Assembly: GCA_002699025.1 (NCBI GenBank) | Contig: PABA01000050.1 | Span: forward strand, 124,001 to 188,000 | DNA length: 64,000 nucleotides | Direction of reading: 5' to 3' | DNA from: Sandaracinus sp. | GTDB lineage: Bacteria > Myxococcota_A > Polyangia > Polyangiales > Houyiibacteriaceae | Position numbers and translations under genes: made by a program | The notes under the pieces: generated by a model | What the model was told of the DNA's origin: nothing | The model's database searches: none | What the model saw: the letters and a program-made list of their open reading frames with translations, nothing else | Shown: positions 28,551 through 51,621 of the stretch, piece by piece | Numbering within the stretch: position 1 is the stretch's first letter | Layout of the letters: every line of letters starts with the position of its first letter

Positions 28551-29621
28551 ATGGCCAACTCATACGCCGTCATCATGGCCGGAGGCTCCGGCACGCGGTT
28601 CTGGCCCGCCTCCCGGCGCGCTCGCCCCAAGCAGCTCCTGCCGCTCGCGCCGGGCGACGATCGCTCGCTGCTCCGCGCCACCGTGGAGCGCATCCGGCCG
28701 CTGGTGCCGGTCGAGCGGATCTACGTCGTCACCTCGGCGGCCCTCGCCGAGGCGACGGCGGCCGAGCTCTCCGAGCTCCCGCGGGAGAACGTGCTCGCCG
28801 AGCCCGTCGGCCGGAACACGGCGCCCTGCGTCGGCTGGGCCGCGGCGACCGTCCGCCGCCGGGATCCGGAGGGCGTGATGATGGTGCTCCCGGCCGACCA
28901 CCACATCGGCGACCCGGAGGGCTACCGGGCCGTGCTCGAGAAGGGCCTCGAGGCGGCCGGCGAGGGCGCGCTCGTCACCGTGGGCATCGAGCCCACGCGC
29001 CCCGAGACCGGCTACGGCTACCTCGAGGTCGGCGAGGCGCTCGAGAGCGGCGTGCACCGGGCGCGGCGCTTCGTGGAGAAGCCGAACCGGCAGCGCGCCG
29101 AGCAGTTCCTCGCCGCCGGCGACTTCCTCTGGAACAGCGGCATGTTCTTCTTCCGCGCCGACAGCATCCTCGGCGCCATCGACGCACACCTGCCGGGCCT
29201 CGCCGCGGCGCTCGGGGAGTTCGACGAGGCCGCCGCCCGGGGCGAGGAGGCCACGCTCGTCGCGAGCCGCTACGCCGAGCTGCCGGCGGTGTCGATCGAC
29301 CACGGGGTCATGGAGAAGGCCGACGAGGTGCTCGTCGTGCCCGGGAGCTTCGGCTGGTCCGACCTCGGCAGCTGGACGACGGCCTGGGAGCTCGCCGACA
29401 AGGACGAGGACGACAACGCGCTGCTCGCCGAGGCGGTGGCGGTCGACGCCAGCGGCTGCTACGTGAGCGCGCCGGAGGGCAAGCTCGTGGCCCTGGTCGG
29501 CGTGCAGGACCTGGTGGTCGTGGACACGCCGGACGCCCTCCTGGTGGTGCCCCGCGAGCGGGCCCAGGAGGTGCGCGCGGTCGTCGCGCGGCTGAAGGCC
29601 GAGGGCGACGAGCGAGCCTGA
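28551..29621 (+). CDS. manC: Mannose-1-phosphate guanylyltransferase
   Basis: A 356-residue nucleotidyltransferase that makes GDP-mannose from mannose-1-phosphate and GTP. The N-terminal MAGGSGTRFWPASR and the PKQLLPL segment form the GTP site. PETGYGYLEVGE and EKPNRQRAEQF bind the sugar. The protein has no C-terminal phosphomannose isomerase domain, so it is the short type. The phosphomannomutase gene follows 35 bp downstream and supplies its substrate. Confidence 0.92.
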   Translation: MANSYAVIMAGGSGTRFWPASRRARPKQLLPLAPGDDRSLLRATVERIRPLVPVERIYVVTSAALAEATAAELSELPRENVLAEPVGRNTAPCVGWAAATVRRRDPEGVMMVLPADHHIGDPEGYRAVLEKGLEAAGEGALVTVGIEPTRPETGYGYLEVGEALESGVHRARRFVEKPNRQRAEQFLAAGDFLWNSGMFFFRADSILGAIDAHLPGLAAALGEFDEAAARGEEATLVASRYAELPAVSIDHGVMEKADEVLVVPGSFGWSDLGSWTTAWELADKDEDDNALLAEAVAVDASGCYVSAPEGKLVALVGVQDLVVVDTPDALLVVPRERAQEVRAVVARLKAEGDERA

Positions 29622-29656: not shown

Positions 29657-31012
29657 ATGAACCCGCACGTCTTCCGCGAGTACGACATCCGAGGCGTCGC
29701 CGAGCGCGACCTCACCGACGAGTTCACCCGCGCCCTCGGGCGTGCCCTCGGCACCTTCCAGATGCGCGCCGGCCACCGCCAGCTCGCCGTCGGGCGCGAC
29801 TGCCGGACCAGCTCCGACCGGCTCCACGAGGAGCTCGTCCGCGGGCTCCTCGAGGCGGGCGTGCACGTCGTCGACGTGGGCGTGGTGCCGACGCCGCTGA
29901 TGTACTTCGCCGTGCATCACCTCGACCTCGACGGCGGCGTCGAGATCACCGGGAGCCACAACCCGCCCCCCGAGAACGGCTTCAAGATGATGAAGGGGAA
30001 GGGGTCGCTCTTCGGGGACGACATCCGCGCGCTGAAGCGGATGATCGAGGAGGACGACTACGACCTCCCCGGCGGCGGCACGGTGGAGCAGGTCGACGTG
30101 CTCCCCTCCTACCTCGGCTTCCTCCGGGGCAACGTGCGCCTGGCGCGGACGGATCTGCGCATCGCCCTCGACGCGGGGAACGGCGCGGCCGGCCCCACGG
30201 CCGTGGCGGCCATGGAGGCGCTCGGTCTCGAGCCCATCGCCCTGCTCTGCAAGATGGACGGGCGCTTCCCCGTGCATCACCCGGACCCGACCGATCCCGA
30301 GAGCCTCGAGCTGCTCATCCGCAAGGTGAAGGACGAGGGGCTCGACCTCGGCATCGCCTTCGACGGCGACGGCGATCGCATCGGCGTGGTCGACGCCGAG
30401 GGCGGCATCCTCTGGGGCGACCAGCTGCTCACCCTGCTCTCGCGGGAGCTCCTGGCGGACCACCCGGGCGCGGCCGTGCTCGGCGAGGTGAAGTGCTCGC
30501 AGACGCTCTACGATGACATCGCGAAGCACGGCGGGCGGCCCATCCTCTGGAAGACCGGGCACTCGCTCATCAAGACGAAGATGAAGGAGGAGGGCGCGCT
30601 CCTCGCCGGCGAGATGAGCGGGCACCTCTTCTTCGCCGACCGCTACTACGGCTTCGACGACGCCGTGTACGCGGCGGCGCGGCTCCTCGAGCTCCTCGCG
30701 CGGGCCGACCGGCCGCTCCACCAGCTGCTCGTGGACGTCCCGGAGACGCACACGACGCCAGAGCTGCGGGTGGAGTGCCCGGACGACGAGAAGTTCGCCG
30801 TCGTCGAGAAGGTCCGTGACCGCTTCGCGGCCGAGCACGACGTGATCACCGTCGACGGCGCCCGCATCCAGTTCGGAGACGGCGCCTGGGGTCTCGTGCG
30901 TGCGTCCAACACGCAGCCGGTGCTCGTGCTCCGCTTCGAGGCCCGCACGCCCGAGCGCCGGGACGCGATCCGCGCCGAGGTCGAGCAGGCCGTCGCCGAA
31001 GCCCGCGCCTGA
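29657..31012 (+). CDS. manB: Phosphomannomutase/phosphoglucomutase
   Basis: A 451-residue alpha-D-phosphohexomutase that interconverts 6-phospho and 1-phospho sugars. The phosphoserine loop is EITGSHNPPPENGFKMM (Ser at about residue 102), the metal-binding loop is FDGDGDRIGVVD, and the sugar-binding segment is GEMSGHLFF. NTQPVLVLRFEA near the end binds the phosphate. The frame is open far upstream; I chose the ATG at 29657 because MNPHVFREYDIRG is the standard N-terminus. It follows manC directly, so the two enzymes provide GDP-mannose together. Confidence 0.93.
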   Translation: MNPHVFREYDIRGVAERDLTDEFTRALGRALGTFQMRAGHRQLAVGRDCRTSSDRLHEELVRGLLEAGVHVVDVGVVPTPLMYFAVHHLDLDGGVEITGSHNPPPENGFKMMKGKGSLFGDDIRALKRMIEEDDYDLPGGGTVEQVDVLPSYLGFLRGNVRLARTDLRIALDAGNGAAGPTAVAAMEALGLEPIALLCKMDGRFPVHHPDPTDPESLELLIRKVKDEGLDLGIAFDGDGDRIGVVDAEGGILWGDQLLTLLSRELLADHPGAAVLGEVKCSQTLYDDIAKHGGRPILWKTGHSLIKTKMKEEGALLAGEMSGHLFFADRYYGFDDAVYAAARLLELLARADRPLHQLLVDVPETHTTPELRVECPDDEKFAVVEKVRDRFAAEHDVITVDGARIQFGDGAWGLVRASNTQPVLVLRFEARTPERRDAIRAEVEQAVAEARA

Positions 31013-50244: not shown

Positions 50245-51621
50245 ATGACGATCCGCCTCGACTACGCCCTCGCCATGGACGCGGGCTCCGGCTGTGGCCT
50301 GACCGACGCGCTCCTCGACGCCGAGGAGGCGCCTTTCCGCGCCGGCCTCGCGCGGGTCCGCGCGGCCGTCGACGAGGGGAAGCTCGGCTTCTGGGACCTC
50401 CCGCGGGACGCGGCCACGCGGGACGCCGTCGTCGAGTGGGCGAAGGGCGTCGACCCGGCGATCACGGACGTGCTGGTCCTCGGCATCGGCGGCTCCTCCC
50501 TCGGCGGGCGCGCCGTCTACGAGGCGCTCGGGGGGCCGCCCGAGCTGCGGGCGATGCAGGGCGAGGCGCGGCGGATCCACTTCCCGGACAACAGCGACCC
50601 CTGGCGCCTGGCGCACCTGCTCGAGGCGCTGGACCCGAAGAAGACGCTCGCCATCGCCATCTCCAAGTCCGGCGGCACGGCCGAGACCGCGGCCAGCCTG
50701 CTGGTCGTGCGCGAGTGGTTGAAGAAGGCCGAGGCGCCGATGGCGAAGCACCTGGTGCTCGTCACGGACCCGAAGTCGGGCTCGCTGCGGAAGCTCGCCG
50801 GTGAGGAGGGCCTCACGGCCTTCGCCATCCCGCCGAACGTCGGGGGCCGCTTCTCGGTGCTCACGCCCGTCGGGCTCGTCCCGGCGGCGCTCGCCGGCTT
50901 CGACGTCGAGGGGCTGCTCGCTGGGGCCGACGCCATGCGCACCCGCTGCGGCGCCGAGCAGCTTCGGCAGAACCCGGCCGGGCTCCTCGCCGCGCTCCAC
51001 GTGCTCCACCACCGGCTCTTCGGGCGGCACCTCCACGTGCTCATGCCCTACGCCGACGGGCTCCGCGGCGTGGCCGCCTGGTTCGTGTAGCTCTGGGCCG
51101 AGAGCCTCGGGAAGAAGCGCGCGCGGGACGGGCGCGTCATCGAGACCGGCCCGACGCCGATTCCCGCCGTCGGCGCCACGGACCAGCACGCGCAGGTGCA
51201 GCTCTTCATGGAGGGGCCGCGCGACAAGCTGGTGAGCTTCGTGGCCGTCGACGCGGTCGAGCGGGACCTGACGATCCCGAAGGAGGAGGGGCCGAATGCC
51301 TACCTCGGCGGGCATGGGCTGGCCGAGCTCCTCGACGCCGAGCGCCGCGGCACCGGCCTGGCCTTGGCCGAGGATGGGCGGCCGAGCCTGACGATTCGGC
51401 TCCCGAAGCTGGACGCGCCGAGCCTGGGCGGGCTGCTCTTCCTCTGGGAGGCGGCCACGGCCCTCGCGGGCGAGCTGTACGATATCGACGCCTTCGACCA
51501 GCCTGGCGTGGAGCTGGGCAAGCGCCTCGCGTACGGTCTGCTCGGCCGCGAGGGCTTCGAAGCGGAGGCCAAGCGGGTGCGCGACGCCGAGGGCGCGGCA
51601 CCGGAGAAGTACCGACTCTGA
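50245..51621 (+). pseudogene. pgi: Glucose-6-phosphate isomerase interrupted by an in-frame amber codon
   Basis: The frame reads as a complete PGI of about 458 residues except for TAG at 51088-51090 (codon 282). The first part has GIGGSSLGGRAVYEA, SKSGGTAET and the signature NVGGRFSVLTPVG. The second part continues in the same frame with LWAESLGKK, ATDQHAQVQLFMEGP and a normal C-terminus. Homologues have Gln at the amber site (QLWAESLGK), so one C-to-T change (CAG to TAG) explains it. The stop lies four codons before the catalytic Glu, so the 281-residue product should be inactive. The start may also be 50191 or 50200. The rest of the gene shows no decay. Confidence 0.88.

Follow-up and report, generated by a model that had tools for sequence, protein, structure and literature searches.

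An in-frame amber codon in the otherwise intact, single-copy pgi gene of a Sandaracinus genome

An in-frame stop codon with conserved coding sequence on both sides is found in two kinds of described system. In a nonsense pseudogene, or null allele, a single substitution has introduced a stop into a coding sequence that is intact apart from it and was under constraint until recently; in systems of amber suppression, reassignment or programmed readthrough, conserved coding sequence continues beyond an in-frame amber codon. The pgi gene of a Sandaracinus sp. genome, encoding glucose-6-phosphate isomerase (PGI), resembles both in these features. It differs from the typical nonsense pseudogene only in that the affected gene is a single-copy pgi, whereas it departs from the amber-recoding systems in having no suppressor tRNA, an RF1 gene that is present, TAG as a usual terminator and a stop that is not conserved. 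A literature search for natural pgi nonsense pseudogenes returned nothing directly relevant. The gene lies in the window, the 64,000-nt stretch analysed here (contig PABA01000050.1, positions 124,001 to 188,000; contig C61 in our numbering), which belongs to a 9.24-Mb draft genome of 238 contigs that is 95.9% complete. The original prediction described a TAG in place of a conserved Gln codon in an otherwise undamaged pgi, offered recent loss, sequence error or readthrough as its cause, and proposed comparing pgi among relatives and looking for a second pgi and for an amber-suppressor tRNA.

The pgi frame opened with ATG at 50245, a start backed by relatives that align from residue 1, and ended with TGA at 51619–51621; positions 51085–51093 read GTG TAG CTC in this frame, confirming the amber as codon 282, which is preceded by 281 codons and followed by 176 (Table 1). 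Each half separately matched PF00342 above the curated cut-off, the NCBIfam match was glucose-6-phosphate isomerase, and the protein read through the TAG could be matched along most of its sequence to solved PGIs (2q8n, E = 8.7e-88). The matches of both halves, together with the end-to-end match of the read-through protein to solved PGIs, placed the gene in the PGI family. No second stop or frame break was found within 50245–51621, and GC3 was 0.98 upstream and 0.94 downstream of the TAG. The AESLGK and TDQHAQ motifs and the C-terminal region, which we take from established knowledge of PGI to carry the catalytic Glu, His and Lys, all follow the TAG, and for this reason the 281-residue product would be expected to be inactive as an isomerase.

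Table 1. Coordinates of pgi, its parts and the two mannose-related genes in the window
Feature	Position	Strand	Basis
pgi, glucose-6-phosphate isomerase, 458 codons with one TAG inside	50245..51621	+	Frame and homology over both halves
In-frame TAG, codon 282, at a Gln position invariant in homologues	51088..51090	+	Direct reading
Open N-terminal portion of pgi (281 codons), expected translated product	50245..51087	+	PF00342, 7.1e-26
C-terminal part of pgi, 176 codons, with AESLGK, TDQHAQ and C-terminal active-site region	51091..51618	+	PF00342, 3.9e-12
manC	28551-29621		
manB-like PGM/PMM gene	~29681-31012		

The claim that the replaced Gln is conserved held in every homologue that could be aligned. 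The relatives of this genome in the collections were Polyangiaceae, Sandaracinaceae and other Myxococcota-type MAGs. Tblastn gave Gln at the codon-282 column in 113/113 homologous loci (about 107 distinct, six loci having been fetched twice), with identities ranging from 74% at best (L155/L079, Polyangiaceae MAG JALVDI010000222.1) to ~28% in distant PGIs. At the TAG position, ten of the 12 closest relatives have CAG and the other two have CAA. Across the columns invariant in these 12, the sole departure of pgi was the TAG itself, all 100 of the 100 others being retained, which bore out the predicted lack of any other lesion and the preservation of motifs on both sides. The absence of any change at the ~219 nonsynonymous sites within these invariant columns placed an upper bound of about 1.4% (Poisson 95%) on the neutral divergence accumulated since constraint was lost. 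No aligned relative had a stop at the codon-282 column. A premature TAG upstream of the catalytic motifs, in a gene that is intact in relatives, is the pattern of a nonsense pseudogene. Separately, in one relative (L031, G026:C355), the PGI match, which is of a different type, stopped short and had a TAA counted within it. This may reflect another damaged pgi or result from assembly, and it is too unclear to call a parallel case.

In principle, translation could restart at a GTG or ATG after the stop, so that the two halves are produced separately and together form a split enzyme; a GTG at 51196 opens an in-register frame of 141 codons. However, this GTG lies past AESLGK, with the result that a portion of the active site would be present in neither piece, and a split pgi gene was found in none of the aligned relatives. 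We regard a split enzyme as the least probable of the readings considered here.

The broken gene appeared to be the only source of PGI. We found no second PF00342 locus in the 9.24-Mb, 95.9% complete assembly, and no cupin-type or bifunctional PGI there that could serve as backup, with no match to PF10432 or PF06560; phosphofructokinase (three matches) and glucose-6-phosphate dehydrogenase were both present. Related pgi genes were found on no viral contig. Of the 237 good-quality genomes sampled from the phylum, 222 had a PF00342 match and 15 had none, a count of absences that is uncertain since divergent PGIs score low with the model. These 15 genomes may reflect natural absence of PGI or a divergent PGI, and lack of the enzyme may on this count be tolerated in the group. 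Several of the 15 fall in the same families (f27, f39, f50).

Whether other genes are broken in the same manner was addressed with a codon-usage scan for in-frame stops that have coding-like sequence on both sides. The scan covered 1.16 Mb of the 9.24-Mb genome and in-frame stops only, as distinct from frameshift lesions, with a sensitivity of 79% for internal Gln-to-stop changes, as estimated on real internal CAG codons. It flagged 12 in-frame stops, and pgi was the only one broken inside a gene; by inspection of the peptides, the other 11 looked like gene-to-gene junctions (sucC/sucD, for example) or chance open frames. At this sensitivity, the 1.16 Mb yielded no further gene interrupted by an in-frame stop, so the assembly shows no obvious abundance of such errors.

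The same sequence informed on the use of amber codons. Coding-like open reading frames in the 1.16 Mb ended in TGA 669 times, in TAG 132 times and in TAA 3 times, so that TAG closed 132 of 804 (~16%), and the 40 codons after TAG ends scored as non-coding on average. TAG was therefore neither depleted as a terminator nor frequent inside genes, the pgi codon being the only internal TAG in the scanned sequence. CTC directly followed the TAG in 4 of 110 such cases, pgi included. Among the 67 tRNA genes of the genome (RF00005), ARAGORN identified none with a CTA anticodon in this 95.9% complete assembly, and the tRNA-Gln genes were ordinary; unusual 4-bp anticodon stems, considered as a possible feature of these tRNAs, were rejected because the stems were of 5 bp. 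The RF1 gene, prfA, was intact. TAG is a normal working terminator in this genome, with no sign of a recoded gene class, and genome-wide amber readthrough was rejected on TAG usage and the in-frame stop scan.

Readthrough confined to this codon, through a near-cognate tRNA-Gln or a suppressor that escaped detection, would yield full-length PGI and would fit both the full constraint downstream of the TAG and the otherwise missing enzyme, and at 95.9% completeness a suppressor tRNA could be unassembled. Against it stand the 67 tRNAs lacking a CTA anticodon, the ordinary tRNA-Gln stems, the intact RF1, the share of genes ended by TAG with no other continuing in frame past it in the 1.16 Mb, and the occurrence of TAG-CTC at other gene ends. 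A programmed readthrough stop conserved across relatives was likewise not seen, since all aligned relatives carry a Gln codon at this column. The lack of a second pgi and of a suppressor tRNA, with Gln in all homologues, strongly lowered this option and left recent mutation and sequence error from the three causes originally proposed. We consider readthrough very unlikely; still less probable is its narrower form, in which near-cognate decoding of one amber in pgi alone would make glycolytic flux dependent on termination efficiency.

The search for a suppressor met a tRNA array at G000:C214:52305-59697 (L063:12306-19698). It contained 32 ARAGORN tRNAs, and a lax Rfam scan of the array, which also revealed no CTA tRNA, added only two weak matches for ~34 in total; these were considered as suppressor candidates and rejected when they proved to be His-GTG and Ser-CGA. 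The array covers most amino acids, has an HNH endonuclease gene inside, and duplicates many dispersed tRNA genes, with array members scoring lower; its contig looked chromosomal, carrying tufA/fusA-like and prfA genes. Further genera of the same family and order also had related arrays or clusters, with 34 tRNAs at L221 (G002:C6), 17 at L222 (G003:C18), 19 at L225 (G035:C126), 6 at L224 (G008:C33) and 7 at L223 (G011:C257), and tRNA-Gln(TTG) stood at one array end in five of these genomes, the source genome included. 'tRNA array units' have been described from mycobacteria (PMC5966550), and no paper was found in a literature search for tRNA arrays and myxobacteria together. The arrays may represent a so far undescribed kind of tRNA array in myxobacteria, anchored at a fixed site in the chromosome.

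Taken together, these results point, with a probability of about 0.5, to a very recent single nonsense substitution at the Gln codon that inactivated the only pgi of the organism, or of the strain dominating the assembly. Translation would then end at codon 282, with RF1 terminating as at any amber codon, and the 281-residue product, missing the catalytic Glu and His parts as well as the C-terminal one, would have no isomerase activity. Both the reality of the TAG base in the organism and the loss of activity are what we infer from the assembled sequence. Two points speak against a nonsense allele: loss of a single-copy central enzyme with no backup would be costly, and the gene shows no sign of decay. 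A sequence error would account for the latter just as well. The TAG could indeed be a one-base error in the assembly consensus, arising from low coverage, a damaged template or a minor strain, with pgi intact in most cells; the perfect constraint on the rest of the gene, its status as the only PGI, the single base separating TAG from a sense codon and the 238-contig draft state all agree with such an error. The scan, at its 79% sensitivity for in-frame stops, argues against it by having found no other such gene in 1.16 Mb, and we hold a consensus error to be a serious possibility, somewhat short of even odds.

The original description was accurate, and the finding is ordinary in kind: a single nonsense codon in a pgi that is present in one copy and undamaged elsewhere. 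The consequence of a loss was originally tied to manC and manB nearby; both genes exist, but they lie ~20 kb away and do not share an operon with pgi, and a link of pgi to mannose metabolism is plausible as biochemistry. Neither a real allele nor an error would alter known biology, and an error would matter for annotation only. A real TAG would mean that the organism has only just lost a central enzyme of glycolysis for which it has no backup, and would offer a natural test of a large-genome myxobacterium growing without PGI.
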